From: Channallabes apus
Taxonomy: Eukaryota > Chordata > Actinopteri > Siluriformes > Clariidae
NCBI GenBank assembly: GCA_030522415.1
Contig: CM060126.1
Location: 1,572,333-1,636,332 of the forward strand
Length of the DNA stretch: 64,000 nt
Reading direction: 5' to 3'
Of this stretch, positions 12,176-61,290 are shown one piece after another. A program made the position numbers and the translations under genes. Numbering within the stretch: the first letter of the stretch is position 1; every line of letters begins with the position of its first letter. Under the pieces are notes generated by a model. It saw only the letters and a list, made by a program, of their open reading frames with translations, did not search any database and was not told the origin of the DNA.

Positions 12176-13198
12176 CTAATAACTGGTTGGGCCACCCTTA
12201 GCAGCAATAACTGCAATCAAGCGTTTGCGATAACTTGCAACGAGTCTTTTACAGCGCTCTGGAGGAATTTTGGCCCACTCATCTTTGCAGAATTGTTGTA
12301 ATTCAGCTTTATTTGAGGGTTTTCTAGCATGAACCACCTTTTTAAGGTCATGCCACAACATCTCAATAGGATTCAGGTCAGGACTTTGACTAGGCCACTC
12401 CAAAGTCTTCATTTTGTTTTTCTTCAGCCATTCAGAGGTGGATTTGCTGGTGTGTTTTGGGTCATTGTCCTGCTGCAGCACCCAAGATCGCTTCAGCTTG
12501 AGTTGACGAACAGATGGCCGGACATTCTCCTTCAGGATTTTTTGGTAGACAGTAGAATTCATGGTTCCATCTATCACAGCAAGCCTTCCAGGTCCTGAAG
12601 CAGCAAAACAACCCCAGACCATCACACTACCACCACCATATTTTACTGTTGGTATGATGTTCTTTTTCTGAAATGCTGTGTTACTTTTACGCCAGATGTA
12701 ACGGGACACGCACCTTCCAAAAAGTTCAACTTTTGTCTCGTCGGTCCACAAGGTATTTTCCCAAAAGTCTTGGCAATCATTGAGATGTTTTTTAGCAAAA
12801 TTGAAAAGAGCCTTAATGTTCTTTTTGCTTAAAAGTGGTTTGCACCTTGGAAATCTGCCATGCAGGCCGTTTTTGCCCAGTCTCTTTCTTATGGTGGAGT
12901 CGTGAACACTGACCTTAATTGAGGCAAGTGAGGCCTGCAGTTCTTTAGATGTTGTCCTGGGGTCTTTTGTGGCCTCTCGGATGAGTTGTCTCTGCACTCT
13001 TGGGGTAATTTTGGTCAGCCGGCCACTCCTGGGAAGGTTCACCACTGTTCCATGTTTTTGCCATTTGTGGATAATGGCTCTCACTGTGGTTCGCTGGAGT
13101 CCCAAAGCTTTAGAAATGGCTTTATAACCTTTACCAGACTGATAGATCTCAATTACTTTTGTTCTCATTTGTTCCTGAATTTCTTTGGATCTTGGCAT
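12176..13198 (-). CDS. Tc1-like transposase, intact (340 aa)
   Basis: This is a DNA transposase that binds the element's terminal repeats and moves it by cut-and-paste into TA sites in the nucleus. Its length equals the usual size for the family. Residues 1-60 form the first helix-turn-helix (SGKGYKAISKALGLQRTTV at 21-39), and a second DNA-binding helix region follows to about 110. The catalytic triad is complete: D153 (LWTDETKVELFG), D244 (LQQDNDPKHTSK) and E279 (SPDLNPIEMLW), with exactly 34 residues between D244 and E279 (DD34E). The GRP-type linker motif reads GRL (59-61), a possible weakening change. The start ATG is followed by PRSKEIQEQ, a normal family N-terminus. The stop lies only a few bases inside the left terminal repeat. 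No frameshift or stop is present; activity is not shown by sequence alone. Confidence 0.93.
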   Translation of the reverse strand: MPRSKEIQEQMRTKVIEIYQSGKGYKAISKALGLQRTTVRAIIHKWQKHGTVVNLPRSGRLTKITPRVQRQLIREATKDPRTTSKELQASLASIKVSVHDSTIRKRLGKNGLHGRFPRCKPLLSKKNIKALFNFAKKHLNDCQDFWENTLWTDETKVELFGRCVSRYIWRKSNTAFQKKNIIPTVKYGGGSVMVWGCFAASGPGRLAVIDGTMNSTVYQKILKENVRPSVRQLKLKRSWVLQQDNDPKHTSKSTSEWLKKNKMKTLEWPSQSPDLNPIEMLWHDLKKVVHARKPSNKAELQQFCKDEWAKIPPERCKRLVASYRKRLIAVIAAKGGPTSY

Positions 13199-13359
13199 GA
13201 TGTCTAGCTTTTGAGGTGCTTTTGGTCTACTTCTCTGTGTCAGGTAGCTCCTATTTAAGTGATTTCTTGATTGAAACAGGTGTGGCAGTAATCAGGCCTG
13301 GGGGTGACTACAGAAATTGAACTCAGGTGTGATAAACCACAGTTAAGTTATTTTTTAAC

Positions 13360-21400: not shown

Positions 21401-21446
21401 GGTGTGTTGAAGCTCCGCCCAGTTGTGTGTTGAAGCTCCGCCCAGC
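21401..21446 (+). promoter_or_regulatory. Twin GC boxes upstream of gene 1
   Basis: A 23-bp unit (TGTTGAAGCTCCGCCCAG plus linker) is repeated twice, each copy carrying GCTCCGCCC (21412-21420 and 21435-21443), the inverse of an Sp1-type GGGCGGAGC box. It lies about 100 bp before the presumed start codon in otherwise AT-rich DNA, so it fits a TATA-less promoter. Function is inferred. Confidence 0.45.
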
Positions 21447-21545: not shown

Positions 21546-21567
21546 ATGGAGTCCGAGCAGCTTCCAG
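21546..21567 (+). CDS. Gene 1 exon 1 (coding part)
   Basis: Encodes MESEQLP and ends in phase 1 at CCAG/GTAACA. The same frame is open upstream but lacks another ATG. The 5'UTR is presumably within 21450-21545. The coding length of 22 nt equals that of gene 2 exon 1. Confidence 0.7.
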
Positions 21568-24500
21568 GTAACAGCCTTCTGTACCCTCACACTTACACCC
21601 GCACACCTACACCTTCAATTCTACACCCGCACACCTACACCTTCAATTCTACACCCGCACACCTACACCTTCAATTCTACACCCGCACACCTACACCTTC
21701 AATTCTACACCCTCACACCTACACCTTCAATTCTACACCCGCACACCTACACCCACACACCTACACCCTCGCATTCATACAGTCAAATCTACAACTTGCA
21801 TATGTACCATCGCATTTATATTATATATATTATATTATATTACATTTTATATATATATATAGCACTTTTAACAGCGGTCATTGTTACAAAGCAGTTTAAC
21901 AGAATTGTTTTAAAATATGGAAATAAACTTAAAATTAATAAGTATAAATTATAATTTATAATTAACACCCTCACATATACACCTTTGCATCAAAGACATC
22001 TAATGCTGACTATTTAAAAAAAAAGCACTTTTAAAAAACTATATAATTTTTTTGCACAGTGTGGGCCGCATCCCCCTGGTGGGCTGTGAAAGTACTGCAG
22101 GCGGGCTGTCAGAGCAATAAAGCAGTACAAATTATCATGTTCAATTTTGAAATTCAATTAAAAGCTATAAAATATTTACCTTTTTTTGTACTTCATTCGT
22201 TAACGTATCATTTTGTTTTCTTACACAGTATAGCAGACAGAACGTTCACTAATTAATTTTCAGATGTGGTTTTAATGCAGGTTTTTTCTCTTCTCTGTCT
22301 GGTGCAACAAATCGCTGCATGATTTCGAGCGGTCAGTGTAACACCCTGTGTAAATATTGATCTCTCTGACTGTACTCTGATAACGTGCACACTGCACAGT
22401 GGGCGAACTTCATTATAATACTCCTTTTCAAGTAACAGATCAGCTGTTTGTAATTAAATAAATTAAATGAATAAAATGAAGTGCTCTGCACATTAGCTTT
22501 CATGTTTTATGTACTCATTCAGCGTTCATTTATAAACAGAACAGCACTTACAGCAAACACAAAGCACTCACTCTCACTCACTCACTCGTCTTCTATACCG
22601 CTTTATTCAGGGTCGTGGGGGTGGAGCCTATCCCAGGAGGCTTAGGGCATGAGGCGGGGTACACCCGGGACAGGGTGCCAATCCATCGCAGGGCACTCAC
22701 ACACACACACACACACCAGGCAATTTGGGAACACCAATTGGCCTAATCTGGACTGTGGGAGGAAACCGGAGTACCCGGAGGAAACCCACCAAACATGGGG
22801 AGAACATGCAAACTCTATGCACACAGAGACAGGAATCGAGCCTGACCGGGAATCGAACCTGGACCCTGGAGGTGCAAGGCGACAGTCAAACACAAAGCAT
22901 TTAACTTTGAATTTAAATAAATGTAATTAAATAATCAACCTTCCAAATGTGATCTTCCTTCATTCTCTCATTATTCTGATTAACTCTGGTTATTAATCAG
23001 CAGGATGTCATGTTCTTCTCTTTGTAGCTGCGTGGCCTCTATACAGTGATGGAGAGCAGGTGGGCGGGGCCTCTCCTCCATTAGTGGGTGTGTCTGAAGA
23101 CCAGGGAGGCGGTCCTGTAAACCCTGTGACACACCACACAAAGGTTTATTTCATGGATTTGAAGATTCTAGTTGTTATACTGTTTATTATATATAAAAGT
23201 CATTAATGGCATAATAATTGTAGCATAACAGGTAGGATATTTTAACATTAAAATATGAATAACAAAATAATAAACCTAAGCCAAATAATTTAAGGGAAAT
23301 TTTTCAGATAATCATAACACTGATTTGCACTGAAATTTTTTTTTCATATATATCATACAAGTTGTTATTATTATTATTATTGTTATTATTATTGTTATTA
23401 TTGTGTTTGTGGGTCACTGAGTCTGTGTTTGTTTTTGCAATGTTAATAGCTTTTATTACATTACTGCACACATCTAACTAGAGCTACTGTTGTTCCCAGG
23501 ATAAGCCGTGGTCATGTGACAGCTCTGCTTCCTCCTCCGCGGAGAGTGATGATGATGATTTGAGGGCGAGAAAAAAAAAGAAGAAGAAACTAAGAAAAAA
23601 GAAGAGCAAAGTAATTTAGTCAATTTCATATTCCATCCTATTTCCATCTATTGTACTGCAACAAGATAGAAAAAAATAATAACTAAATTACAACTTTACT
23701 GTTAAAAAATTTCTAAGACTGGAGATTCCTTCCTTACATGCTACATAAACATCTCAACGTTTCAACAGTCACACGACGTTTATTTTTTACAATCGCAATT
23801 ACAATAGTAATGTACAATAGTAACAACTTGTATAATCAAACTGTTACTAAAAAACAATGATGAATTATAACAAGAGCACTAATTAAAACCTGCTGTCAGA
23901 AAACTAACCAACCAATCAGAATCCAGAACTTGACATTGCTGTTATATACAGTAACTTGTACAATGTTGGTTTGGAAACATAAAATAATTTCTTCTCCGGA
24001 ACTTTCTATAGAGATCGAGCTCTTCGTCATCATCATCCTCCAGTTCCTCCTCTGACAGTGACAGCAGTGACGTGAGTGAATAATATAACTTAAAAAGAAA
24101 ACTTTGCATTCGTGACATTTTTTAAGTGAATTGTACCAAAATATGTGGCTACTAACAGACCTGCTAATTCAGCTAGCATGCGTTCTATTGTATGACGCAC
24201 TGTGACTAGCAAGAGCACATGATTAGCTATTGTGCTGTTATATTATTTTACATCATGCTAGCTATGCTAATGATTGTTTTTTTTTATATCAAATTACACA
24301 TTTTAAAACATCTCACTGCATTATTAGCTTTTCTGAAATGCTAGCACCATAATACATTCTAGCAAATATCAGCAAGCATGATAGGAACTAAATTGTAAGT
24401 AAAAAAAAACTTATAATTTACAGTAGCTTGTGTGCAGAAGCTAACTTTTTTTTTCAGCTAGCTTCTACACACATGCTAACTTATACGTTTGTTGCTGCTT

Positions 24501-25951
24501 TTAGATGTTTTTCATAATCTACTGTACATAAACCTCTCCAGATATGTGTGAAATGGGGCTTATATTGTTAGTAACATAGATAAATTTAGTATGAGTTGTT
24601 TTGTAGCTACTGTAGGTTTTTGTTCTAGCTAGCGTATCCTCAGGATTAGCTTTTGTAAAGTCACTTTAGTTAAAGTTAGATTTTCTAAAGTTACTTTGAA
24701 GTTTATTAGGAAATGTTTTACAAAGAGACAAATTTATCCACAGGATGAGAAGAAAAAGAAGAAAAAGAGGAGGAGCCAAAGGAAACAGAATGCTGTGATC
24801 ACAGCGATACCCGAGTCAGGTGGGAGAAATCCGCTGCACTTGGAATTTGTTGTTAAATTCTGTAGGATGTTATGTCCTGAATTTATTTATTTTCAACCTT
24901 TCATTAGCAAACGTTTCATTAATATTTATGAGTGATTGTAAATTACATCAGAGCGCCATCGAATTCTGGATCCTGATTGGTTGAAGGGTGTCGACATGGA
25001 ATTGGAACTTTTTTTTAAGATAAGGAAACATTTATTTAACATTAACGTTCTCTGGAGTTTGCAACAGCTGTTGCTTAGCTAATGATTAGCCATTGTGCTA
25101 TGCATATGATTAGTTTATTATTTAAAGTTAAAAAAAACACACACACAATTTAAACCTTAAACAGATATGAAGTGACTAACAGGGTTTCTGTCAGAAGTGA
25201 TGAAAATGGTAGTCATGTAGTTATGGATAAACACGAGTTTTTAAAATGTGGGGGAAAAAAACAACATTATAGCATCATAACTAAGAACAACAACAACAAC
25301 AACATTTTGTATTTCCAGATACGTCCAGAACAGTGTGAGGGTTTCACTTTGTGTGTTTTTTGTCTTATTAATTTCAATAGTGAGAAAAAAGAGAGAGCAG
25401 TGTGGAAGAAGTGACTGTTTATAGCTGCTATAATATAAGCGAGAACACAAACTAGCTTGTTTCCCAAAGATTAAATGGAGCTAGAGATGTATACAAAGTA
25501 TATCAAAAAGAAAAAATTATTTAGGAGGAAAAAATGTCATCTGTGGCTCACTGAAAAAAATATTGCATAAGAGGAATTAGGCACTTCAGGACATTTTTGG
25601 AAAACACATCAAGGTTGGCGTGGCAGCAGTAACTCCGCCTCATGACACCGCCCTGTGGTTGAATATGTTATTGCACCCACACAAGACCGAGTGACTCACG
25701 TTTCCTTTTCTCTTCACCTTACTGTAGCTTGACTCAAGTATGTTTGCACTAGTTGTAGCTTCTCCTCATCAGCCATATAAAACGCTCCACCCTTTTAATC
25801 TTATCTTCAGATACAAATACATCGCCCTTTATGTACACACACACACACACACACACACTGTTAGTTAACTCTCAGCAGAGTGAGTGAATTGGTGTTCATG
25901 TGCATTATTATTCATATACAACACCTTCTTTATGTCCATATAGGGTACAGA

Positions 25952-26005
<54 letters not shown>

Positions 26006-26087
26006 CTACATTTACACTAGTCGACTATTCTGTACATTAAAACAAAGATAGTATCTGGACCAGTAAGTGTGCAATGGATTTTGTATT

Positions 26088-26164
<77 letters not shown>

Positions 26165-26345
26165 ATTATATTATTTCAAAAAAGGAAATATTTACTTGCT
26201 GAACATAGAATTAATTGTAATTTTTTTACACAACAATGTAATGGTGTAGAACTGCTGTTGAATTTCCTGTGGAATGAGAGGAATAAAATCTGCTTGTTAT
26301 CAATTAGTTTTATATAACAGCATAAAACACAGTTTCATGTTGTGT

Positions 26346-26389
<44 letters not shown>

Positions 26390-27127
26390 AGCAGGTCTTG
26401 TGTTGGAAATTGTGTTAACGCCGCTGAAAGAGCTAAACGACGAGGGAGAGATGAAGAAAGCAAAAAAAGACAGCACTAGAGTAAGCACGAGTGTGTGTGT
26501 GTGTGTGTATGTGTGTGTGTGTGTGTGTGTGCGTGTGTACGAGTATATTCCGTATTCATATGTATAATATCAATTTATTCTGCATACACATCGTAAACTA
26601 TAATTAATTAACTATAAATAAATAAATATATACATAGATAGATAAATAAATAAACAAGTAAATAATAAATTATTATTATATTAAGTCTGTACTGTTTTGT
26701 TGATATTTTTATGTATTTCATTGTACAATATTAATCAATTAATTTCTTATCTAACAATGATGTTTATTTATTTATTTGTTCATGTGTTATGTAGAAGAAG
26801 AAGAAAAAGAAGAAAGACAAGAAGAAGAGAAAGCAGAAGAAAAAGAAGAAGAGAAAGAAGAACAAAAAGAAGAAAAAGAAAAAGAAGGTAAAAAGCATGC
26901 AAAAAATAACATCCGTTTACTGGAATTGTCGTTTTAAAATATACTGTATATTTTTCTATTTTCTGTTTTTTTTTTTGTTTGTTTTTTTTAAGGACTCCAG
27001 CTCGTCTTCCTCCTCAGACAGCTCGACATCTGATAGTGAAGATCAGGACAAGAAGAAGAAAAAGAAGAAGAAGAAGAAGAAGAAGAAGAAGAAAAAGAAG
27101 ATGAAGAAGGTACAGAGCTAATAGAAT

Positions 27128-27193
<66 letters not shown>

Positions 27194-30100
27194 TTTAGAT
27201 TCTTTTTGTTCCTGTTTGATTCAGGACTCATCGTCTGACAGCTCCAGCGATGATGAAAAGAAGAAGAAAAAAAAGAAGAAAGACAAGAAAAGAAAGAAGA
27301 AGAAAAAGAAGATGAGAAAAAAGAAAATAGTGAGGAGAAATTTCTAATGTCCTCGTAAAATGTAATAGATTAATAGATACAGTTTCTGTCTTCTTCTACT
27401 TATTCTTATTCTTATTCTTATTGATTTAGTATTATTATTATTATTATTATTTAGTATTCAAGCTCAAGCAGCAGTTCTTCTTCAAGCGAGAGTGAGGATG
27501 AGAAATCAGGCCAGAAACTAAAGAAGGTAGGACAAGTTTAAATATATATATATATATATAATAAAATATTCATTTTTTTTTTATTAACAAAAATAAAATT
27601 AGAATGAGTTTAAAATGATACTGCAACAATATTAATTCAGTAAGTATAGAACAACATATAAAATGTAATAATTTTTCCATTTTAAGCGTCTGCTTCATTT
27701 TTAGCTTCGTCTTATTAAAAGATCAGTCGAGTTGTAGAAACACCACAAGCATGATCAGTGGAAACAGGAAGCACCTGAGCTCAAGTTGAGTCTCATGGCA
27801 AAGGGTGTAAATACTTATGTACATGTGATTTTTGTTGTTGTTGTTGTTGTTTTGTTTAATACATTTGCAAATATTTCAAACAAACTTCTTTCACATTGTC
27901 ATTATGGAGTATTGGATGTAGACTGTTGAGGAAAATAATGAATTTAATTAATTAAGACTGTAACATACAGTACAGTAACACGATGTGGGAAAAGTGAAGC
28001 GCTGTGAATACTTTCCTGATGCTCTGAATAATAAGAAGCTAGAAGTTAGGAAAAAAAATTTTTTATGGTATTTGGAACATTGAAAAAGGTGAACAAATAT
28101 ATTATTTAAATATCTAAATTAAAGAAATTAAAGAAATTCAATTTATATTTAATATAACATTAAAAGTAAACTCTCCCCTTACTATAACCAGTATATGATT
28201 GTCTGATCATTTAATCTTTGTTTGTTTATTTTTTTTATAAAAAGCTAATTAGCTAATGTTTGCTATCGGCTCGTCTCTGAAATCATTTTAGTAATTCTTT
28301 GGACTTTGTTGTTAGCAGGAAACAGGAAAATGCTCACCATGGGGCGATGCTGCTGCTGAGGGAAATGAGGTTTGAGCTCTTAGTTTTATTTATAATTTTA
28401 ATTCATTCTTTATATCGCTAAACTCTGACTACATTAAGATTTTGATACAGATTTTTTTTTTAAACATTCTAAATATAAGGTATAAATTTCCCCCAGTTTC
28501 CCAGGAGCACTCTGTAGACCTGATTGTTCAATTCAATTCAATTCAATTCAATTTTATTTATATAGCGCTTTTAACAATGGTCATTGTCTCAAAGCAGCTT
28601 CACAAAAATTAAAGAAATTAAAAAAATAAAAAAAAAAACTATATATAGAATAATTATATATAAAATAATAAATAAATATATAAAATTATAATAGAAAATA
28701 GATAAATAAAAACAAATAATAATAATAATTGTAGAAAAGAAAATAATTGGAAGTGTGGATGTGTGAGAAAAATGTGCGGATAATAATGAGACGAATGAAT
28801 GAAATTTCTCTGATGAGCAAGCCAAGGGTGACGGCGACGTCACTCGTCGAGTGACGACGATTGTCACTCGTTCGTTACCATGGCTACTTCCCTTAGTTTT
28901 TTCTCTCTTCCTCTTTTTGTGTTTTTTATTTTAACATCTCTGTTTTTTTATTCTGTCACTATTTTGTCTTCACTTTTCTTCTTGTATTCTGTTTTTGGCT
29001 TCACACACTTTGCCCTCGACTTGTTCCCGGTACCCCGTCCCTCCTGTGCATGATGTTCTCTCAGTAATTATTCTGTTTCAGTTCCGGTCCCATCAGATCA
29101 GAAAATATTTTACTGCATGTTTTTAAAACTTATGATTGTAATTTAATACTTCTTTATTTATTTCTGTTCATTTGTCGTTTATAAAATCCAGCTTCTATCA
29201 GCTGAGCTCCTTAACCATTATTAACCATGTGACAAAACTTTGAATAAAAACTTTAGCATGTCTTTCCAGATTAAAGCTTTTTATATAAAATAAATTATAA
29301 AAGTTGAGCTTTTAATACTTTTACATCAAATGTCAAGCCTAAAGTAGAATCTTTCCGTCTCTTTTTTGCTAAACGAGTTTAATCCTCTGGTTGAAGTTGA
29401 CGTGTTTCTGCGCCGCGTTTTATTTCTGTACGTTCGTTATTAAAACCAGTTTGGACTTTACAGAACAGCCGTCACTTTACAGGTCAGAGTTTTGTTCCTC
29501 AGTTTCTAAGATGAAAATGGTGTTGAAGACTCATGAGTCATGTGATCTCTCTCTCTCTCTCTCTCTCTCAGGGGTTATTACAGGGCGAGCTGGAGGGACG
29601 TTCAGGCGTGATGGCTGATGATTGGTCAGCGCCTCCAACAGGTTTGTTTCAAACTGACACACATGTCCTTTCCGCTCTTTTTATTAATCAGTCCATTCTG
29701 TTGCATCACTCCATTCCTTCTATTAAATCTTTCTTTTTTCTCCACTTTTCACCTGAGGTGCGTTTATTTTTACACAATTTTAGCTACAAGGCTAAGGCTC
29801 GGAAGTTAGGATTAGCTTCATTTAGTATTGCTTTAATTTTCTCCTGCCATCACTTTCTTTTTTACACTGTTCTTCTTTGTTTGGTTCTCTTTTCTTTCTT
29901 AATTAATTCATTCATTCATTTAACCACTGTATTTTTATTTAATTTTTTACATTTTTTCAAAATTCGCTTTTTATCAGATCCAATTTACTCATCTAATCCT
30001 TCCCTACATTTTTTACTTCTTACATTAATTAATTTCTTTTTTTTTCTTTCTTACATCTTTATATATTTATCTTTCTTTCACTTTTCTTTTTCCTTTCTGT

Positions 30101-33100
30101 CTTTCCCATTTATGTACATATTAGTTTATTGCCATCATAACTTTCTCCATTTCCTCTTTTTTCTTTCCTTATATTTTTTTCCCATTTATTATTTGTTTTA
30201 TATTATTTCCTGTTTTCCCTTCTAATTTTCTTGCAATTCTTTCTTTAGAAAGAAAAGTAGAAACAAGGTTTATTTACTATCATACAGTATATCACACTCT
30301 ATAAACACTTCTAACTGTAGCTAATTCTACCTTCTGATTGATTTCCCAGCATTCCCTGCGATCTGTGAGGCTGAGAGGACTGATGGGAGATGTGACGATG
30401 GTAAAAGAAGAGAAGAGGAAATGAAAGGGAAGCTAAGGAAAAAGAAAAAGGTCTAGTTAATTAGCAATTCATTAAAAAAAAGATCTTACATTTTTCTCGC
30501 GCTATTAGGTTCTCTGCTTTAATTAAAAACACAGCTAGCATGCTAACTGATGCTAATTCTCACAATGCAAATACTGCAGTTAGCTGTCAGTTAGCAAGAT
30601 CGTCGTGTTAGCTAGCTAGAAATTAAACAAAATAAAGAGATTTAATTAAGTCTGTGAATAAAGTGACTCCTTTATTGTCTTTACCTTTTTAATCTAACCC
30701 AGTATCTTTCCATTAGGATTCTGCTTCATTGTCAGGATCGACCTCCTCCTGCTCAGAGAGTTCCTCCTCAGACAGCGAGGACGACAAGAAGAAGAAAAAG
30801 AAGAAGAAGAAGAAGGTGCACTGTTTATCATAAACATAATAAATCATCTAAAGGATTGGACATAACCTCGTGCTCTTTCCGTCATTTTCAGGTCTCGAGC
30901 TCATCTTCATCTGATTCCTCATCCTCATCGGACGATGATAAGAAGAAAAAGAAGAAGAAAAAGAAGAAGAAAAAGAAGAAGAAGAAGGTGCACTGTTTAT
31001 CATAAACGTAATAAATTATCTAAAAGATTGGACATAACCTCGTCCTCTTTCTGTCATTTTCAGGTCTCGAGCTCATCTTCATCTGATTCCTCATCGGATG
31101 ATGATAAGAAGAAAAAGAAGAAGAAAAAGAAGAAGAAAAAGAAAAAGAAGAAGAAGAAAAAGAAGGTTAAGAAGTATTATAAATATTTAAATAAATATTT
31201 AAATAAATGAATAAATAACAGAAGATGCAGCAGAACTCAACGGAAACACTGAAACACGCGTGTGTATATATGATGCTAATACTGGATCAGATGAATGAAA
31301 TGTTAATGCTATAGGCTGAAGTCAATGAACTTATATTACATCAGTAACGTTAACGTTTGGTTTGTAAAATTCTAATGCTGACTCAGTTATGTGTAGCACA
31401 AGAAAGAGCATACTGTATGTATCTTAATCAACTAATTGCCAATTAAAATACGTAAATGAACAAAATATTTAAATAAAAATAATAAAATGTAGTTAAATAA
31501 ATAAATAAATAAATAAATCATAAACAAACAATAAATAAAAGTATGTATTCATATAGGCAACATGCTAATTTATGCAACTTTAGAATTTGTATAACATTAT
31601 TAATCATGATATTTAATACAGTATTTACAAGAAAATAGATTAAAATTTCTGCATTTATACATCGATTTCCCTTGCTCAGGACTCGAGCTCATCCTCATCG
31701 GACACTTCCTCCTCAGACAGTGAGGATGAAAAGAGAAAGAAGAAGAAAAAGAAAAGAAAGAAGAAGAACAAGAAGAAAATTGTGAGTTCCGTCCTCACGC
31801 TACGAAAAAAAACTTTATCATTTCACGGCCTTCTTATTTTTATTGATTAAAATCAATAAACTGTGCGTTTTAACCATTTATACAGTGTGTTGTTTAGTGT
31901 TTATAATGTTGTGTTACAGGCAAGCAGCTCTTCATCTGACAGTGAGGAGGAACTGAATAAGATGAAGAGAAAGAAAAGTGGAAAGAAGAAAAAGAAGAAG
32001 AAGGTGATTCCGGAATTCAGCTTTAATTTTATACAAACAAACCAAAAAACACAAATAAATATTTGTATTTATAGATTTATATAAATATTATATATTTAAT
32101 ATTTATTATTTTAAAAAAATATTTGATTATTATTTCATTACATTTTTATTATTATATTGTTATAGTTATATTATTTATATTTTGTATTATTTGTATTTCT
32201 ATTTATATAAATTTTTCTCTTTGTTTTTACAATTTTTTTTATTAATATTTTCTACTCATCTTGTTGGTGAATTATTTTACTTTCTGGGGCAGTTTTTTTT
32301 TTTTTTCATCAAATCATGAAAAAAATTTATGCAACTTTTTAAAAACCCAATTTCAGAATAATAAGTTTGATAATTTTTGTCACCTTGTTTCCATCACGTA
32401 TATTGGCCTTTATTGGTCCAGCCCCCTCCCATATATGTGTTGCCATGGCAACCGGTTCCAGCCATTGACTGAACTTTCTGACATGTTTTGATGTCTGTTC
32501 TGCATCAGGGCTCCAGTTCTCCTTCGCCTTGTATCAATGATGAAAAGAAGAAAGATGACTTAAAGGTGAAGAAATAAATTACACTAATATTAAAGGAAAT
32601 ACATTTCTTTATTTTTAACACATTAAAGTGTGTTGGTGACTATATTTTTTAATCAGGTAAAAATAATTTTTTGTTCTTGTTTGTGCGTCCTATTCATCTA
32701 GCTAGCTAAATGTTTTGAAACAAGTGGTAATTAGCATGTTACCAACTAGCCTCAATAGCTAAAATAATATTTATAAGTTACAATGAATTTGACAAATTAG
32801 CTATAAAATAAAAACAAGCACTTTAAACTAATAGTTGATTGGATTCATTAAAAAGAGTCTTTTATTGAATCGCCTCATTTTGATTCTGACTGCGCAGGAG
32901 GAAGTGAAGGAGGAACCTCAGGATGGAGGACGAGAGGACAGAGAGCGATACGACATTTTCCCAGATGATCCCACAGCTGGATTCCCCACAGAGGGGGCGG
33001 AGTCTCAGGGGGAGGGGTCCAGGGTCACTTGGGGAGTCGGGGCTTTAAGCTACAGATTTCACCAGGATCCTGAGAGGAACGGCAACGAGTCTGAGTTTTC

Positions 33101-33125
33101 CATGTTGAACGAGAATGAAGTGTGA
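21546..33125 (+). CDS. Gene 1: 20-exon Ser/Asp- and Lys-repeat protein (about 615 aa)
   Basis: Not recognised as a named family. Twenty exons join with all splice phases consistent and no stop (1848 coding nt). Coding exons: 21546-21567, 23028-23143, 23500-23610, 24012-24071, 24744-24819, 26395-26480, 26795-26887, 26993-27109, 27225-27329, 27455-27526, 28319-28369, 29572-29641, 30350-30450, 30717-30815, 30892-30987, 31064-31165, 31680-31781, 31920-32003, 32509-32565, 32898-33125. Most internal exons are phase 0-0 cassettes pairing a Ser/Asp/Glu block (SSSSSDSED) with a Lys/Arg block (7-20 residues). No signal peptide or membrane segment is visible, and the chain should be disordered. Alternating acidic-serine and lysine blocks recall Nopp140/NOLC1 in style, but its LisH and C-terminal domains are not seen. 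A nuclear or nucleolar scaffold phosphorylated by CK2 is a guess. The start ATG has G at +4. Exon limits are my reading, not transcript-proven. Confidence 0.8.
21588..21772. repeat. 28-bp minisatellite in intron 1
   Basis: About five tandem units of a 28-bp motif with cores CCGCACACCTACACC and TTCAATTCTACA, starting about 20 bp after the exon 1 donor and ending in degenerate CACACCTACACCC copies. Confidence 0.9.
21838..21900 (-). mobile_element. LINE 3' tail fragment in intron 1
   Basis: ATATAGCACTTTTAACAGCG and GTTACAAAGCAG match the inverted 3' end of fish L2-like LINEs, as at 28527. Confidence 0.5.
22589..22885 (-). mobile_element. tRNA-derived SINE in intron 1
   Basis: Inverted 8591-type SINE. 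The B-box complement GGAATCGAACC is at 22849-22859, with a second partial B-box copy (GGAATCGAGCC, about 22832-22842) just inside, so the head is locally duplicated. The body carries a short CA run. Confidence 0.85.
23028..23143 (+). CDS. Gene 1 exon 2
   Basis: Acceptor TTTGTAG, donor AAAG/GTTTAT, phase 1 to 0. Encodes AAWPLYSDGEQVGG and, later, VSEDQGGGPVNP: a non-repetitive segment with one Trp. Confidence 0.75.
23500..23610 (+). CDS. Gene 1 exon 3
   Basis: Acceptor TTCCCAG, donor AAA/GTAATT. Encodes DKPWSCDSSASSSAESDDDD, then a short Leu-Arg linker and a Lys block; the first acidic-to-basic cassette. Confidence 0.8.
24012..24071 (+). CDS. Gene 1 exon 4
   Basis: Acceptor TTCTATAG, donor GAC/GTGAGT. 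Encodes Arg, a run of twelve Ser, then DSDSSD: an acidic-serine half-cassette whose basic half is exon 5. Confidence 0.75.
24744..24819 (+). CDS. Gene 1 exon 5
   Basis: Acceptor ATCCACAG, donor TCAG/GTGGGA, phase 0 to 1. Encodes DEKKKKKKRRSQRKQ, then NAVITAIPES. Confidence 0.8.
25834..26160. repeat. (CA)n arrays in intron 5
   Basis: Three arrays at 25834-25858, 25957-26002 and 26091-26160, the last about 35 uninterrupted units. Confidence 0.9.
26341..26394 (+). promoter_or_regulatory. (TG)n acceptor tract before exon 6 with a CAGCAG end
   Basis: The polypyrimidine tract is replaced by about 23 TG units running to TCCAGCAG. Two AGs three bases apart allow a one-codon NAGNAG choice. A second GT tract begins about 10 bases after the exon 6 donor (26491-26540). 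Confidence 0.6.
26395..26480 (+). CDS. Gene 1 exon 6
   Basis: Phase 1 to 0; donor AGA/GTAAGC. Encodes LVLEIVLTPLKELNDEGEMK, then KAKKDSTR: the only clearly hydrophobic, helix-like segment of the chain (about residues 129-157). Confidence 0.75.
26795..26887 (+). CDS. Gene 1 exon 7
   Basis: Acceptor TTATGTAG, donor AAG/GTAAAA. All 31 codons are Lys, Arg, Gln, Asp or Asn, mostly Lys by AAG. Confidence 0.75.
26993..27109 (+). CDS. Gene 1 exon 8
   Basis: Acceptor TTTTTTAAG, donor AAG/GTACAG. Full cassette: DSSSSSSSDSSTSDSEDQD followed by about 17 Lys and MKK. Confidence 0.8.
27134..27192. repeat. (GT)n in intron 8
   Basis: About 29 units occupying half of the short 115-bp intron between exons 8 and 9. 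Confidence 0.9.
27225..27329 (+). CDS. Gene 1 exon 9
   Basis: Acceptor TTGATTCAG, donor ATA/GTGAGG. Cassette DSSSDSSSDDE, then a Lys-rich block ending MRKKKI. Confidence 0.8.
27455..27526 (+). CDS. Gene 1 exon 10
   Basis: Acceptor TTATTTAG, donor AAG/GTAGGA. Cassette YSSSSSSSSSSESEDEKSG, then QKLKK. Confidence 0.8.
28319..28369 (+). CDS. Gene 1 exon 11
   Basis: Acceptor GTTAGCAG, donor GAG/GTTTGA. Encodes ETGKCSPWGDAAAEGNE, a non-repetitive spacer with a SPWGD motif. Confidence 0.7.
28527..28860 (-). mobile_element. L2-like LINE 3' end in intron 11
   Basis: An inverted pentanucleotide tail (CAATT)n at 28528-28552 is followed by ATTTATATAGCGCTTTTAAC and the CAAAGCAGCTT motif, then AT-rich sequence and GATGAGCAAGCCAAGGGTGA. 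This order is seen in many fish LINE 3'UTRs. No coding part. Confidence 0.65.
29572..29641 (+). CDS. Gene 1 exon 12
   Basis: A perfect (CT)n acceptor tract ending TCAG; donor ACAG/GTTTGT; phase 0 to 1. Encodes GLLQGELEGRSG, then VMADDWSAPPT. Confidence 0.7.
30350..30450 (+). CDS. Gene 1 exon 13
   Basis: Acceptor TTCCCAG, donor AAG/GTCTAG (weak), phase 1 to 0. Encodes AFPAICEAERTDGRCDDGKR, then an acidic-basic block and KGKLRKKKK. Confidence 0.7.
30717..30815 (+). CDS. Gene 1 exon 14
   Basis: Acceptor CCATTAG, donor AAG/GTGCAC. Cassette DSASLSGSTSSCSESSSSDS, then EDDK and a Lys tract. Confidence 0.8.
30892..30987 (+). CDS. Gene 1 exon 15
   Basis: Acceptor CATTTTCAG, donor AAG/GTGCAC. Cassette VSSSSSSDSSSSSDDD then a Lys tract. 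First copy of the tandem exon pair. Confidence 0.8.
31064..31165 (+). CDS. Gene 1 exon 16
   Basis: Acceptor CATTTTCAG, donor AAG/GTTAAG. Duplicate of exon 15: VSSSSSSDSSSDDD, lacking two Ser codons but with a longer Lys tract. Confidence 0.8.
31680..31781 (+). CDS. Gene 1 exon 17
   Basis: Acceptor TTGCTCAG, donor ATT/GTGAGT. Cassette DSSSSSSDTSSSDSEDEK, then a Lys/Arg tract with one Asn and a final Ile. Confidence 0.8.
31920..32003 (+). CDS. Gene 1 exon 18
   Basis: Acceptor GTTACAG, donor AAG/GTGATT. Cassette ASSSSSDSEEELNKM, then KRKKSG and seven Lys. Confidence 0.8.
32509..32565 (+). CDS. Gene 1 exon 19
   Basis: Acceptor GCATCAG, donor AAG/GTGAAG. Encodes GSSSPSPCINDEKKKDDLK, the shortest and most degenerate cassette. 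Confidence 0.75.
32898..33125 (+). CDS. Gene 1 exon 20 (C-terminal)
   Basis: Acceptor CTGCGCAG; ends at TGA. Encodes a unique 75-residue acidic tail: EEVKEEPQDGGRED, YDIFPDDPTAGFP, VTWGVGALSYRFHQDPERN and a SEFSMLNENEV end. VKEEP is a SUMO-like site. This is the best query for finding relatives. Confidence 0.8.
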   Translation, partial: EEVKEEPQDGGREDRERYDIFPDDPTAGFPTEGAESQGEGSRVTWGVGALSYRFHQDPERNGNESEFSMLNENEV

Positions 33126-33352: not shown

Positions 33353-33386
33353 AATAAAATTTAAAAGTTTGCTATTAGCGAATAAA
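33353..33386 (+). terminator. Polyadenylation signals of gene 1
   Basis: AATAAA hexamers at 33353-33358 and 33381-33386, about 230-260 bp after the stop codon, giving a short 3'UTR. Confidence 0.6.
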
Positions 33387-35769: not shown

Positions 35770-36153
35770 TGTCATGCACACTCAATCTGCGCCCGGCACT
35801 AGGACCCGGAAGTAAGGCGGGCGCCAAACCAGGAAGTATAAAAGAGGTAAACAAACGATGGCTTACCACTCAGTCATTGAGTTCGGCCCATGTCGGTTTC
35901 GGTTGTCGTTTCAGCAAACCGTGAGTACTCACCATTTGGTTTATCTGCTTTCTGCTATTGTCTGTGTATTTATAGGACGCAGGTTAAATTTGTGTTTTTC
36001 CCTTGCTCCGATTTTGTGAGAGTCCTTAGATTAAAGTCGCGTGGTTATCCTGCCTACTCGCCTCTCTCCGCGTTTGTGTTTACCATCCACGCTACATTGG
36101 GCTAACCGCTAAAGCTACGTCTTCTGGTCCCCGAGGTTAGTTCACTCCTGACA
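35770..36153 (+). repeat. 5' LTR
   Basis: 384 bp, TGTCA...TGACA ends. Contains TATAAAAG at 35837-35844. A start about 32 bases after the TATA box would fall on CTCAGTCATT (35869-35878). Confidence 0.95.
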
Positions 36154-36154
36154 G

Positions 36155-36164
36155 AATGACTGAG
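36155..36164 (+). other. Self-complementary primer-binding site
   Basis: AATGACTGAG begins one base after the LTR and is the exact complement of CTCAGTCATT at 35869-35878, the predicted RNA 5' end. There is no tRNA-type TGG primer site. This is the layout of Tf1/sushi self-priming. The gag ATG (36156) lies inside this site. Confidence 0.7.
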
Positions 36165-37145
36165 CCCTCCGCAGTAAACCCAGCGGATCATGCGCACCTC
36201 TGCGACGTGGTAGATCAGCATGCCGCGCTAATTGACAAGCTAACCGGGGAGATCGCTACTTTGCGCCTGGGCCTCCAAGACGTTGCGGCCTCAGGCGGGA
36301 GAACGCGGATCTCCGGGCGGCTGTTGCTGGCGCGGCTAGCGGGCCCCCCCCCCCCCACTGATGTCTTCTTATCATTACCAGAAAAGTGGAACGGCACGGA
36401 TGGGAAGTGCAGTGTGTTTCTGACAGCGCTCGATCTGGTGTTCGAGTTCAATCCCACCAAGTACTCCACTGATCGGCTACGCATTGTTCTTCTCGTCTCG
36501 TTGCTCAAAGGGCAGGCAGCTGAGTGGGCCACGGCAGTTCTCAGAGCAGACACGGACACCGCCCACTCATACAATGAGTTCACCCATCAACTCAGACTCA
36601 CTTTCGAGCACCCAGCGGGCGAGGTGGAGACCGACACAAGACTCTACCACCTGAGGCAGGGAGGATCGTCCGTGAGTCGCTACACAGCGGAGTTTCGTAC
36701 CCTCGCCGTACAGACCACGTGGGGCGATGCAGCGCTCCGGACGTCCTACTACGAGGGCCTGGCTTCTCGAATCAAGGACGAACTAGCCGGGCGAGAGCTT
36801 CCTGCTACCTTGGAGGGCTTGATCCAACTCGCTCTCCGGATCGACCAGCGCCTTCTCTCTCGCCCGAAGCCAGCCCCTCGCACCCTGCCACCTGCACCCA
36901 CCTTCACCATCACCACCCCACGACCCGCAGACTCCGCCTCCTACACCACCCCTGGACATGTCGGTTCTCCACCCCCTGCCGTGGTTGACACAGGAGCCGG
37001 GGAACCCATGCAATTAGGACGCGCCTCCTTGACCGCAGCAGAACGGGAGAGACGGTTTCGCGAAGGACTCTGCGCCTATTGCGGGTCAGCAACACATCAC
37101 CGGGCAGCTTGCCCTCTCCGGCCGGAAAACGCACAGGCCCGGTAA
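36156..37145 (+). CDS. gag-like capsid/nucleocapsid protein (329 aa)
   Basis: Structural protein of the retrotransposon particle. An N-terminal coiled-coil-like segment (HAALIDKLTGEIATLRLGL) is followed by a Pro-rich stretch coded across a 13-C homopolymer. The retrotransposon gag domain follows (LPEKWNGTDGKC, LVSLLKGQAAEWATAVL, RYTAEFRTLAVQTTW). The C-terminal zinc knuckle reads CAYCGSATHHRAAC (CX2CX4HX4C). The frame is intact. The same domain family was domesticated as PEG10 and RTL genes in mammals. pol overlaps its end in the -1 frame, so a -1 shift is expected. GGAAAAC at 37124-37130 is a possible but non-canonical slip site. Confidence 0.9.
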   Translation: MTEPSAVNPADHAHLCDVVDQHAALIDKLTGEIATLRLGLQDVAASGGRTRISGRLLLARLAGPPPPTDVFLSLPEKWNGTDGKCSVFLTALDLVFEFNPTKYSTDRLRIVLLVSLLKGQAAEWATAVLRADTDTAHSYNEFTHQLRLTFEHPAGEVETDTRLYHLRQGGSSVSRYTAEFRTLAVQTTWGDAALRTSYYEGLASRIKDELAGRELPATLEGLIQLALRIDQRLLSRPKPAPRTLPPAPTFTITTPRPADSASYTTPGHVGSPPPAVVDTGAGEPMQLGRASLTAAERERRFREGLCAYCGSATHHRAACPLRPENAQAR

Positions 37146-38019
37146 GAGGGGAGAGACACTCGCCGGGTCACCTTCGTGTCTCCGCCATCACCACCAACTC
37201 CTCCTGTCTCACGGTTCAGGTACACCTCCAGGTTGGCCACAAACGAGTCCGAAGTGATGCATTCATCGACTCCGGGGCAGCAGGTAACTTCATTGACACC
37301 TCGTACGCCAACAAACTGGGGGTAAAACTCGAGGCATTATCCCAGCCCGTTCGAATCACATCTGTCGACGGTCGCCCCCTATCCACCAGCCCAATCATCA
37401 CCCAAACAGAACCCATCACCGTCTCCATCAACCAACACCAAGAACAGCTACACTTTTACGTCACCTCCATCTCATCACCTCCCATCATCCTTGGACATCC
37501 CTGGCTGCTACAGCATGACCCCCTCATCTCCTGGACCCAGAACCGGATCCTCCAGTGGGGCGCGACCTGCAACGAACTATGCCTACGGGCAGCGGCTGGG
37601 ACGTGCTCTAGGGAGTCCGAGGCCCCCGACGTCGACACCAACTCCATCCCAGAGCCGTATCAGGACCTGGCGGAGGTCTTCTGCAAACGGCAAGCCACCC
37701 ATCTTCCTCCGCATCGTCCCTACGATCTCGCCATTGACCTCCAACCCGGTACAGTTTCACCCCGCGGCCACCTCTATTCGCTTACAACCACAGAGACGCA
37801 GGTCATGGAGGAGTATGTGACCAACGCCCTTCGCCAAGGCACCATCAGGCCCTCCTCCTCACCTGCCGCCGCGGGGTTCTTCTTCGTGAAGAAGAGAGGC
37901 GGTGAACTTCGCCCTTGTGTCGACTATCGGGGGCTAAACAACATAACCATCAAAAACCGACATCCATTGCCTCTTACCAACTCAGCCCTGGACGTCCTCT
38001 CTGGCGCCACCATCTTTAC
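37124..38019 (+). pseudogene. pol, 5' part: protease and start of reverse transcriptase
   Basis: In the -1 frame relative to gag. The aspartic protease active site is DSGAAGNFIDTSY near 37270-37308. Then come ILGHPWLLQHDP and the RT N-terminus (GTIRPSSSPAAAGFFFVKK, LRPCVDYRGLNNITIKNRHP). It ends abruptly at LSGATIFT, where a DNA element entered the codons for T and K. The reading frame runs on into the insert and stops at 38080, so the natural protein is lost. Confidence 0.9.
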
Positions 38020-38601
38020 TACAGTGGGAGCCACGTCAAACAGCCGCCTGGAGCATGACTGCTCCGTGGCAGTTCCATGAAGGGTTAATGCAGGCTTCGT
38101 GCATGGAATGTGATCCCCCGCGATGACGCAGTTAACGATGCCCCGCCCCATAAACGCCCCCATGCGCTTTCTAAAAAGATGGTTGCAATGCCGTATAATT
38201 CCGCCAGATGGAGCATTGACTGGCACAGTTAACTGCAGTGTCCAGGAAGCCCAATACCGTATCTTTAATATACAGACAGTTCTTGTATTGTCAACATAGT
38301 TTCATAAATAGATGAAAAAACAACAACAACAAACCGATTAATAAAACAGATTTGTTAAATCACTCAATACATAACCCATGATGATTATGCTATTTATTAT
38401 TTAATAATGAATTAATAAAATTAGTTAGTGAAATATTTTTAAGACATCCTGAAATGATCCTTAAAGACACGGTAGCGGCTGTAATTTGTCTATACCGATC
38501 ATTGTAGGTACGGAATAAAAACGCAGGCTACGTACAGTATTTTATATTACTGTGTATTTTACCTAGTTCCATTTAATATACTGATAGATAATATTTTGCT
38601 G

Positions 38602-42640: not shown

Positions 42641-42876
42641 GTGATTGCAACTCAGCGCAGCTGGCTTGTTTTAATGTGTTCTTGAGAACGAAGCGCCATC
42701 TAGTGGTGGCACCAGGTAAATGAATAAATAGGGCTTGAATGGGCGTGTTTACTGTGAAATCTTGACACGCCTTTCGGCCAGAAAAGGGAGGGGGGATTAC
42801 GGCGTGCAAAGGCCATTCACACGCCATTCACACTTCAGCCACACTGTCGCGGCTATTTGGTGTGGCTCCCACTGTA

Positions 42877-44740
42877 AGTTGGACCTCTGGAGCGCCTACA
42901 ACTTGGTGCGCATCAGAGAGGGCGATGAGTGGAAGACGGCCTTTATCACCCCTACTGGACACTATGAGAATCTCATCATCCCATTTGGACTGTGTAATGC
43001 CCCCGCCGCATTCCAACATCTCATTAATGATGTCCTTCGCGACATGCTCGGTCGGTGGGCATTCGCCTACCTGGACGACATTCTCATCTATTCACGCACC
43101 ATGGAAGAACATACCCAGCACGTCAGGGCGGTTCTAAAGAGATTACTCGCCCACCAACTGTACTGTAAGTTGGAAAAGTGCGCTTTTAACGAGCGCTCCA
43201 CCACGTTCCTGGGTTTTGTCATCTCGCCCCAGGGTGTGGCCATGGACCCGCAGAAACTAGAAGTTGTGCGTCATTGGCCCCTACCCAAGACCCTCAAGCA
43301 GCTTCAACGGTTTCTCGGGTTTGCAAATTTCTATCGTCGCTTTATCCGGGACTACAGTACAGTTGCCGCCCCCCTAACCGCTCTGACCCGTCCCTCATCT
43401 CTCCCTTTTCACCTCAACCCTGTAGCCGTCTCCGCGTTCCAGTCACTTTGTCACCGCTTCACCACGGCACCGATTCTCCGCCACCCAGATGCCAGTAAAT
43501 CATTCGTTGTAGAGGTGGATGCTTCAGATGTGGGCGCTGGAGCTATCCTCTCGCAACGAGGTCCAGATCAAAAACTACACCCATGTAGTTTTTTCTCCAG
43601 AAAATTTGATTCCACTCAACAGCGATACGGGGTAGGGGACCGCGAGCTGCTGGCCATAAAGTGGGCTCTGGAGGAGTGGCGTCACTGGCTCCAGGGCGCC
43701 AGCGAGCCATTCATAATCTGGACGGACCATCAAAACCTCATCACGATCCAAACCATCAAACAGCTAAACCCACGACAGGCGCGGTGGGCATTATTTTTCG
43801 AGAATTATAATTTTCACCTCTCATACCGTCCGGGATCTAAGAACACCAAAGCGGACGCCCTCTCCCGACAGCTGGAGCTGGACGTTCCCCGGGCGGACCC
43901 CGTGCCTGTCCTTCTCTCTTCCAGGATCATCGCCCCACTCCAATTGGACCTGGAGATGAGAGTTCACCAGGCACAGGTCACAGAGACCGAACCGGCAGGT
44001 GTGCCACCTGGACGACTCTTCGTGCCCGAGGTGATGAGACCAGAGGTCCTCCAGTGGGGACACTCATCGCCGATTTCTGGACATCTGGGCACACGACGGT
44101 CCCTCCAATTTCTCCAGCGGGGCTTCTGGTGGCCGTCCATTACGAGGGACGTCCAAGAGTTCGTTCAGGCATGCCCAGTGTGCGCCAGGGCCAAGAACAC
44201 CAATCGACCAGCCCCAGGTGAACTGCAGCCACTCCCAGTCCCTCGACGGCCCTGGACGCACATTGCCGTCGACTTCATCACGGGCCTGCCGGCCTCCGAA
44301 GGAAAGGACACCATCCTCACGATCGTCGATCGGTTCTCTAAGACCGTGCATCTGGTGGCTCTCGCCGGACTCCCGTCAGCAAAGGAGACAGCAGAGCTGA
44401 TTTTAGAGCATGTAGTCCGTCTGCATGGGTTCCCCAAGGACATCGTCTCGGACAGAGGGCCCCAGTTCACAGCCCGGTTCTGGAAGGCCTTCTGCCGTCT
44501 GATCAACTCCACCTGCAGTCTGTCATCCGGATACCACCCACAGACTAATAGTCAGACGGAGCGGACCAACCAACAGCTGGAGCGCTATCTGAGATGTTTC
44601 GTAGCAGATCGTCAGCGCTCCTGGGCACGCTACCTCATTTGGGCGGAACTATCACACAACCTCCACACCTCCTCTGCCACCAACCTAAGCCCATTTGAGG
44701 TATGCTACGGTTTCCAACCTTTGATGTACCGTAAGAGGTT
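42877..44740 (+). pseudogene. pol, 3' part: RT, RNase H and integrase
   Basis: Resumes the interrupted RT at [15 protein letters not shown]. The RT catalytic motif is YLDDILIYS near 43065-43095. RNase H shows [25 protein letters not shown] and TDHQNL. The integrase has an H-H-C-C zinc region ([10 protein letters not shown] ... CPVCARAK) and the catalytic D-D-E in [17 protein letters not shown] and TERTNQQLE. Near 44720-44760, where a GTTGATGTACCGT-type segment is repeated, the frame shifts. The open frame starts within the nested insert's TIR, so its apparent upstream extension to 42735 is not pol. Confidence 0.9.
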
Positions 44741-44761
44741 GATGTACCGTTCACCCAACAG

Positions 44762-45376
44762 TTGGTCCGCAGATGTCGGCGGCTATGGATTACAACCAAC
44801 CGGGCCATCCAACGTGCCAACGCCAGCTACACCCACCAACACCGCCGTCGACATCCTCCGGGACGACTGTACCACATAGGTGACAAGGTATGGCTTTCCA
44901 CAAAAAACCTCCACCTCCACACCGAGTCAAGAAAACTTTCACCCAGATTCATCGGACCATACCGCATCACCCACAGGATTAACCCTGTCACCTACCGGCT
45001 CCAGCTGCCTGCGGCGCTCCGGATCCACCCAGTATTCCACCTATCCTAATTCAAGCCTTTCATCACCTCACCCATGACTCCACCCACCCCCCCAGCTCCT
45101 CCTCCCCGGATCATCGACGGCGGTCCCGCCTACACCGTGCGCCGAATCCTCGACTCGCGCCCTCGGGGCAGAGGTACTCAGTACCTGGTGGACTGGGAGG
45201 GCTACGGCCCCGAGGAGCGATCTTGGATCCCGGCCCGGTTCATCCTCGACCCCGAGCTAATTCGAGACTACCGTCACAGGGTATCCTCCACCCCAGGACC
45301 GTCAGGAGCCGGTCCTGGACAGGGGGGTACTGTCATGCACACTCAATCTGCGCCCGGCACTAGGACCCGGAAGTAA
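44762..45376 (+). pseudogene. pol C-terminus: GPY/F module and chromodomain
   Basis: After the frameshift: KVWLSTKNLHLHTESRKLSP then RFIGPYRI (integrase GPY/F module) and LPAALRIHPVFHLS. An in-frame TAA at 45047-45049 follows, then continuation in the same frame to a chromodomain ([32 protein letters not shown]; about 45131-45260). The chromodomain would tether integration to marked chromatin and places the element among chromoviruses. Confidence 0.88.
45321..45330 (+). other. Polypurine tract
   Basis: AGGGGGGTAC directly before the 3' LTR, the expected plus-strand primer site. Confidence 0.75.
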
Positions 45377-60225: not shown

Positions 60226-61290
60226 CAGTATTCACTCCCCATCCAAATCATTGAATTCAGGTGATTCCAACCACCTCCATAGTGTATAAAATCAAGCACG
60301 TTGGCATGCAGAGCGCTCCTACACACATTTGTGAAAGAATTGGTTGCTCTCAAGTCCAGTCGTGTAATCTCCGCACTACTAAATATTCCATAGTCAACTG
60401 TTAGTGGAAGCGATTGGGAACGACAGCAACTCAGCCACAAAGTGTTCGGCCACGTATAATTACAGGGCGCGGGGTCAGCGGATGCTGAGACACATACTGT
60501 ACAGTACTGTAGTGCACAGATGTCGACAACTTTTGGCAGAGTCAGTAGGTACAGACCTCCAAACTTCATGTGGCCTTCAGATTAGCTTAAGAACAGTGCA
60601 AAGAGAGCTTTGTGGAATGGGTTTCCATGGCCAAGCAGCTGCATCTAAGTCTTACATCACCGAGTGCAGTGCAAAGCATCGGATGCAGTGGTATAAAGCA
60701 CGACACCACTGGATTCTAGAGCAGCGGAGACGTGTTCTCTGGAGTGACGAATCACGCTTCTCTGTCTCGCAATCTGATGGATGAATCTGGGTTTGGTGGT
60801 TGCCAGGAGAACTTTTGTACTGGGTTTGTACTTGTCTGACTGCATTGTGCCAAGTGTAAAGTTTGGTGGAGGGGGTTGTCTTCAGGCTCGGCCCATTAGT
60901 GCCAGTGGAAGGAACTCCTAATACTTCAGCATACAAAGATATTTTGGACAATTACATGCTCACAACTTTGTGGAAACAGTTTGCGGACGAGCCCTCCGTG
61001 TTCCAGGATGCTTGTCCACCAGTACCGAAAGCAAGGTCCATAAAGATGTGGATGAGAGAGTTTGGTGAGGAAGAACTTGCCTGGCCAGTCCTGACCTCAA
61101 CCCGATAGAACACCTTTGGGATGAATTGGAGCGGAGACTGCGAGCTAGGCCTTTCGTCCAACATCAGTGTCTCACAAATGTAATCCTGGAAGAATGGTCA
61201 AAAACTCCCATAAACACACTCCTGAATGTTGTGGAAAGCCTTCCCAGAGGTGTTGAAGCTGTTATACAAACAAAGCCACCTGGGAATTCA
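60226..61290 (+). mobile_element. Tc1-like transposon, decayed, right end lost
   Basis: The left end follows TA at 60224-60225 (CAGTATTCACTCCCC). Transposase pieces: LQTSCGLQISLRTVQREL at about 60555-60610 (second DNA-binding region), the first Asp in VLWSDESRFSVSQSDG ending in a stop (60782-60784), then LVPVEGTPNTSAYKDILDNY and a mutated second-Asp region (FQDACPPVPKA). The Glu region is frameshifted. An internal deletion removes the N-terminal helix-turn-helix and the GGG-MVWG segment. The sequence passes into a GACA repeat at about 61300. Confidence 0.85.

Follow-up and report, generated by a model that had tools for sequence, protein, structure and literature searches.

A 20-exon fish gene built of duplicated serine/aspartate and poly-lysine cassette exons and ending in a conserved acidic tail

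Long runs of lysine codons lying among simple repeats raise the question of whether they belong to a genuine gene or are microsatellites that happen to read as protein and, if a gene, what kind of product it might specify. This question arises for positions 21546–33125 of a 64 000 nt stretch of Channallabes apus DNA, the whole of which was analysed and is here termed the window. From an ATG at 21546 to a TGA at 33123–33125 on the plus strand, 20 exons separated by 19 GT-AG introns join into one unbroken frame, and the spliced coding sequence is 1848 nt, or 615 codons plus the stop. Rejoining the exons reproduced exactly the coordinates, start, stop, exon count and 615 aa length of a preliminary description of this locus, and its proposal that the cassettes are symmetric fits the 13 of 20 exons (3, 4, 7–11 and 14–19) that are phase 0-0. 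The junctions between exons 1 and 2, 5 and 6, and 12 and 13 are in phase 1; exons 5 and 6, and likewise 12 and 13, are therefore symmetric as pairs. The gene is read as intact and protein-coding, in one open frame over 20 exons.

The repeat unit is a Ser/Asp block at the start of an exon with a Lys block placed against the donor. The first such cassette is exon 3 (23500–23610), and the unit recurs in exons 8 (26993–27109, K17), 9 (27225–27329), 14 (30717–30815, K10), 15 (30892–30987, K16), 17 (31680–31781) and 18 (31920–32003), all placed by the gene model and by the cassette-unit search described below, and in exon 16 (31064–31165, K20), which self-alignment identified as a tandem copy of exon 15 plus intron. 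Partial cassettes, taken from the gene model, are exon 4 (24012–24071), with a Ser/Asp block only, exon 7 (26795–26887), with Lys only, exon 10 (27455–27526), a Ser/Asp/Glu block with a short, weak Lys tail, and the degenerate exon 19 (32509–32565), whose Lys end is also weak. Exon 5 (24744–24819) joins a Lys block to a non-repeat tail and ends in phase 1. The non-repetitive exons of the model are exon 1 (21546–21567), which carries the start codon, encodes MESEQLP and ends in phase 1; exon 2 (23028–23143), with 59 % GC; exon 6 (26395–26480), which has a NAGNAG acceptor and, from the repeat list, TG arrays on both sides; exons 11 (28319–28369) and 12 (29572–29641, ending in phase 1); most of exon 13 (30350–30450), which has a Lys end; and exon 20 (32898–33125), a conserved acidic C-terminal tail containing RVTW and closing with TGA. 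All of these exons, and the flanking elements that follow, are on the plus strand. A 23 bp direct repeat of 1.9 copies (21402–21445), ∼100 bp before the ATG, contains a CCGCCC box, which may be of the Sp1 type, and is a candidate promoter element; two AATAAA polyadenylation-type signals at 33353 and 33381 (33353–33386) follow the stop codon at distances of 228 and 256 bases.

Several simple repeats adjoin these exons. Just past exon 1, intron 1 contains a minisatellite (21594–21753) with a 28 bp unit, 5.7 copies and 98 % matches. The TG arrays around exon 6 occupy 26341–26387, ending 8 bases before it, and 26491–26538, beginning 11 bases after it, and another (27133–27192) ends 33 bases upstream of exon 9. 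TG repeats adjacent to exons are known as TDP-43 sites that promote skipping, as for CFTR exon 9. Skipping exon 6 (86 nt) alone would break the frame; skipping exons 5 and 6 together (162 nt) would keep it.

In order to weigh the gene model against chance, we considered the reading in which AAG microsatellites are merely flanked by fortuitous splice-like sites, or in which the gene is dead. The region is AT-rich and holds many simple repeats, and at least four of its splice sites score poorly, as this reading would have it. When ranked against all AG and GT dinucleotides of the window, using base weights from general knowledge rather than trained ones, acceptors had a median percentile of 96.8 and donors of 95.7, the lowest-ranking acceptors being those of exons 5 (66) and 10 (74) and the lowest-ranking donors those of exons 2 (62) and 13 (68). 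A search for an acceptor, Ser/Asp block, Lys block and donor in one frame returned 11 plus-strand rows in the window, representing eight exons, every one of which belongs to the gene model; the same search found no unit on the minus strand of the window and none on either strand of 60 dinucleotide shuffles of a 13 kb region. Tandem Repeats Finder (rows scoring 50 or more) placed AAG-type arrays at seven sites, all on the plus strand and in exons 7, 8, 9, 14, 15, 16 and 17, and the longest row of each array stops at the exon end or no more than 4 bases from it. Within purine-only codon runs (148 codons), G occupies codon positions 1, 2 and 3 in 7, 11 and 104 cases. The non-repeat exons 2, 11, 12 and 20 have a GC content of 53–59 % against 25–38 % in their flanks, although exons 6 and 13 reach only 43–45 % and cassettes 9 and 16 are the same as their own flanks.

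Comparison of the cassettes with one another gave a further measure of coding function. Nucleotide alignments were made blind to frame, and out-of-phase columns were set aside. Summed over all 25 listed exon pairs, differences at codon positions 1, 2 and 3 numbered 39, 47 and 162. For four cassette pairs, all of which include exon 17 and so are non-independent, they numbered 5, 11 and 38, such that 38 of 54 fell at position 3 (binomial p 3 × 10−8); a fifth named pair, exons 15 and 16, is absent from that list. With lysine tracts removed and exon 10 entered whole, nine of the 36 pairs of Ser/Asp blocks offered 24 or more in-phase columns; these nine differed 2, 8 and 35 times at codon positions 1, 2 and 3, and four chosen pairs of these blocks 1, 3 and 11 times (p 0.002). 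Because pairs share exons, these p-values are rough, but the comparisons all point the same way. The excess at position 3 indicates that amino acids were kept while the DNA drifted, and on these comparisons the amino acid sequence inside the cassettes is evidently under constraint. Adjacent AAA-AAA lysine codons occurred three times against 10.1 expected, as few being seen in 0.15 % of 2000 shuffles of the Lys codons. Such scarcity would fit a tendency to avoid the sliding of ribosomes along poly(A), as outlined in the available part of PMC4363877; as an AAG-rich repeat unit could equally produce the deficit, it was set aside as evidence. The codon-position and shuffle tests lead us to reject the microsatellite artefact, and the frame that is intact across 20 exons and the conservation of exon 20 in other sequence sets (see below) likewise oppose it, so that chance splice sites or a dead gene are scarcely credible. 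That 21546–33125 is a real coding gene is almost certain, and the unit search, the placement of the AAG arrays and the codon-position bias uphold the original contention that such a structure would not arise by chance.

The array also retains a record of how it formed. A tandem duplicate of period 172 (30786–31165) takes in exons 15 and 16 and the intron before each, and across exons 14–16 a stretch of 202 bp is 92 % identical. The duplicated 76 bp intron shows five differences; the two exons themselves differ at a single silent site in the Ser/Asp part and at a single site in the Lys tract, and the changes in length (6 and 12 bases) are each divisible by 3. Comparisons of exon 14 with 17, exons 15–16 with 17, and 17 with 18 gave ∼80 % matches over the exon, and in the 75 bp of intron upstream about half of the columns were alike. 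These similarities in exon and intron among exons 14–18 indicate that successive duplications of exons enlarged the array, and by sequence divergence the duplication of exons 15 and 16 is the youngest step seen in it.

We looked for relatives of the gene with its least repetitive parts. Used alone as a query, exon 20 (75 aa) matched five of six candidates at E ≤ 1 with 61–96 % identity: one at 96 %, which we infer to come from the same or a very close species, and four at 61–65 % over 97–100 % of the query. Lack of conservation of this exon in related fish had been named at the outset as grounds for abandoning the gene; instead, there were five matching proteins, and the alignment of six sequences contains 34 invariant columns, including ERY--F-DDPT and EG-ESQGEGSR-TW. 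The C-terminal end is common to all of the six except P0003, which extends 12 residues beyond it. In P0002 and P0003 the string IPTAQ precedes EEVK and the intron end in the window reads LTAQ, which suggests that both derive from genomic DNA with the CAG acceptor kept. By these alignments conservation is established for exon 20, and for that exon only. When the full-length protein was the query and the search was limited to residues 538–615 or 281–352, none of the 5 and 31 candidates, respectively, matched at E ≤ 1, probably because candidates needed a length 0.55–1.75 times that of the 615 aa protein; exon 20 succeeded alone because the sequences searched are exon-sized. Searches of the 1.16 Gb genome with exon 2 and with exon 20 each gave a single match, and the gene is apparently single-copy. 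On these matches we see a gene rather than a family within this genome, and the earlier suggestion of an undescribed fish gene family may not hold. As to whether it is undescribed, a search of the literature collection used here for lysine-rich exon duplication in teleosts found no matching paper, which does not in itself show the gene to be undescribed, and Nopp140-type terms matched a human-cell paper; fish gene annotations may already include it as a predicted locus without a name. Flanking genes, sought by filtering open frames for GC content and complexity over 200 kb and reading them by eye, included among the frames listed what we take to be an LRFN-type gene lying 82–94 kb before the window begins (at about −94061 to −82143) and, downstream, presumably an IGSF11-type C-terminal exon (about +147960 to +148457). 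These two neighbours gave no name for the cassette gene.

Two genome-wide looks concerned the cassettes themselves. The exon 8 peptide matched exons 8 and 17 alone at E ≤ 1 in a shallow survey in which six candidates were scored, and there may be other lysine-rich genes. The cassette-start pattern AG-GAY-TCN-AGY-TCN-TCN-TCN had four matches in the genome, two of them in the gene (exons 8 and 17); those on C7 and C10 have no lysine block downstream and look like chance.

The predicted protein is dominated by charge. Its 615 aa comprise 175 K, 121 S, 58 D, 48 E and 27 R (by class, 202 K/R, 106 D/E and 135 S/T), with thirteen Lys runs of five or more, the longest of 20, 17 and 16, and 37 CK2-type S/T-x-x-D/E sites. 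Its charge-segregation score lies 19 SD above 300 shuffles, as expected of a block polyampholyte. The C-terminal 75 aa contain one Lys and are net acidic, and the structure predicted for exon 20 alone (pLDDT 51) has no secondary-structure element and no fold. Scanned against Pfam both entire and in three pieces, the protein matched no family at E ≤ 1, with the caveat that the composition correction of HMMER may mask low-complexity matches, and no relatives of the protein were found in the PDB. The alternation of acidic serine and lysine blocks in the manner of Nopp140, but lacking its domains, is accordingly supported as first described.

Nopp140 (NOLC1) is similar in its alternating acidic CK2-type serine and basic blocks and in its many CK2-type sites. 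It also has an N-terminal LisH motif, and neither this (in the N-terminal piece or the whole protein) nor SRP40_C (PF05022) was matched here at E ≤ 1. Treacle (TCOF1) is closer in some respects: in the excerpts available, it is described as having repeated CK2-type serine clusters that alternate with basic segments, its repeat domain being spread over an exon series, exons 6A–16 (PMC7957619), and as a block polyampholyte with K-rich segments (PMC11996177). It differs in that the basic blocks here are near-pure poly-Lys and lie mostly on the acidic block's own exon, in length (615 versus 1488 aa) and in its K-rich C-terminal nucleolar signal, where our protein has a conserved acidic tail; the Treacle profile (PF03546) was also not matched at E ≤ 1, the same composition correction being a caveat. 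The gene could be a divergent fish form of this group that has lost its recognizable domains, rather than an independent gene. The CK2-type acidic serine blocks that alternate with basic ones in both, and the likewise multi-exon repeats of Treacle (exons 6A–16, PMC7957619, in part) would suit this, and such a form is conceivable because zebrafish Treacle matches the human protein in the repeat domain only, with no match to the basic C-terminal domain, according to the portion of PMC11996177 available. We nevertheless consider it unlikely, as Pfam gave no family at E ≤ 1, and so neither SRP40_C, LisH nor Treacle (low-complexity matches may be hidden), the genome's single SRP40_C match (G000:C22:24295659-24295805) lies on C22 whilst the gene is on C23, the conserved tail is not known to resemble either family, and the almost pure Lys blocks lack the Ala/Pro-containing spacers noted for Treacle in the excerpt of PMC7957619.

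Other charged proteins offer further comparisons. The nucleolar disordered regions of POLR1F, POLR1G, NUCKS and LYAR, as far as the accessible part of PMC10936679 describes them, share long Lys blocks, acidic separators and predicted disorder; our protein differs in its Ser/Asp acidic segments, its lack of a recognized domain and its duplicated exons. By sequence alone it also resembles the polyphosphate-binding PASK-motif proteins, a sequence class and not a family, as 301 of 596 windows of 20 residues satisfy the definition of at least 75 % D/E/S/K and one Lys (PMC12345225, in excerpt). Triadin and junctin likewise have many small symmetric, Lys-rich exons, and a membrane protein of that type, with small phase-0 exons coding a charged luminal tail, would have its best candidate segment in residues 121–139, the 19-residue stretch of highest mean hydropathy (1.59). 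This stretch is no clear membrane segment, however, as it contains Pro, Glu and Ser; Ser13 and Lys blocks also precede it, the repeats are Ser/Asp plus poly-Lys rather than alternating Lys-Glu, and no Pfam family was matched at E ≤ 1, making this identity very unlikely.

For the product itself, the reading we prefer, at roughly even chances, is that of a disordered nuclear, probably nucleolar, phosphoprotein that would condense via its charge blocks and has grown by exon duplication. From composition and analogy, it would be an intrinsically disordered Lys/Ser-rich phosphoprotein, nuclear and most likely nucleolar. Phosphorylation by CK2-type kinases would render the Ser/Asp blocks strongly negative; these would pair with Lys blocks of their own and other molecules, the Lys blocks might also contact RNA or polyphosphate, and the protein would condense by complex coacervation, as Treacle does. 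The number of cassettes would set valence, and duplication of exons, perhaps together with skipping in frame, would adjust that number. The strongest analogies are Treacle, where alternating charge blocks stabilize condensates and the K-rich end nucleates them (PMC11996177, available portion), and the nucleolar grammar in which K-blocks with acidic, E-rich regions partition to the nucleolus (PMC10936679, likewise in part). Against a nucleolar location, the acidic blocks here are richer in Ser/Asp than in Glu, which departs from that K-block plus E-rich grammar as given in the same excerpt of PMC10936679. A nuclear chromatin or RNA-processing phosphoprotein acting beyond the nucleolus (in speckles, sperm chromatin or elsewhere), with Lys runs that bind nucleic acid, is the less probable alternative. 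Long Lys runs are expected to bind nucleic acid and here reach 20 residues; on the other side, the protein has 175 Lys versus 27 Arg, and Lys-rich blocky disordered regions favour nucleoli, alternating Arg/acidic ones favouring speckles, in the part of PMC10936679 at hand.

In the condensing phosphoprotein that we favour, a partner would dock on the conserved acidic tail. RVTW is present in five of six aligned exon 20 tails, P0002 having RGTW, and as an RVxF-type docking string it suggests that this partner is protein phosphatase 1, an enzyme that could undo the phosphorylation. An RVxF-like string, by a search pattern taken from general knowledge, occurs in 5.2 % of shuffled tails, and PP1 docking is a lead only.

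A bolder proposal, which we hold to be improbable, is that this is a lineage-restricted fish gene whose poly-lysine cassettes supply a charge-block scaffold absent from fish Treacle, each cassette being a self-contained evolutionary unit. Purine-rich tracts can act as exonic splicing enhancers. The AAG tract would then code the Lys block, supply the AAG|GT donor and act as such an enhancer, and a duplicated exon would therefore be recognized at once and in frame. It has been reported that human Treacle made bipartite zebrafish nucleoli tripartite (PMC11996177, excerpt). If the condensing, cassette-built protein is real, it would provide a naturally occurring set of charge-block proteins whose block number and length are set by whole-exon duplication, and related fish would offer valence variants for testing block number against condensate tuning; exons 15 and 16 catch one such duplication step, with the intron copies still >90 % alike. 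The gene would, moreover, be a conserved one that matches none of the domain families searched.

The remainder of the window holds one further lysine-rich frame and several mobile elements. At 55304–55495 (plus strand) an exon-like frame follows TTTTTAACAG and reads DKEKCKDKEKCK(DDKKHK)n...HKRHGGHSSSSSDED, ending in a TAG stop followed by GTAACG; its sequence suggests the final exon of a further Lys/His-rich gene, and it had no Pfam match at E ≤ 0.01. A human PRR13 sequence, reconstructed from general knowledge, was tried and had no significant match in the window, this frame included (best E 1.8). Frames of Gypsy/Ty3-type LTR elements (gag, aspartic protease, RT, RNase H and integrase) lie at 36141–38077 and 42732–44876 (plus strand), and GC content is 0.59 at 36–38 kb and 0.50–0.52 at 42–46 kb, higher than elsewhere in the window. 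Tc1-type transposase frames occupy 5391–6293 (plus), 12179–13291 (minus) and 60383–60781 (plus), the third of which falls short of the family cut-off. A frame for a reverse transcriptase, presumably of LINE type, is found at 197–844 (plus).
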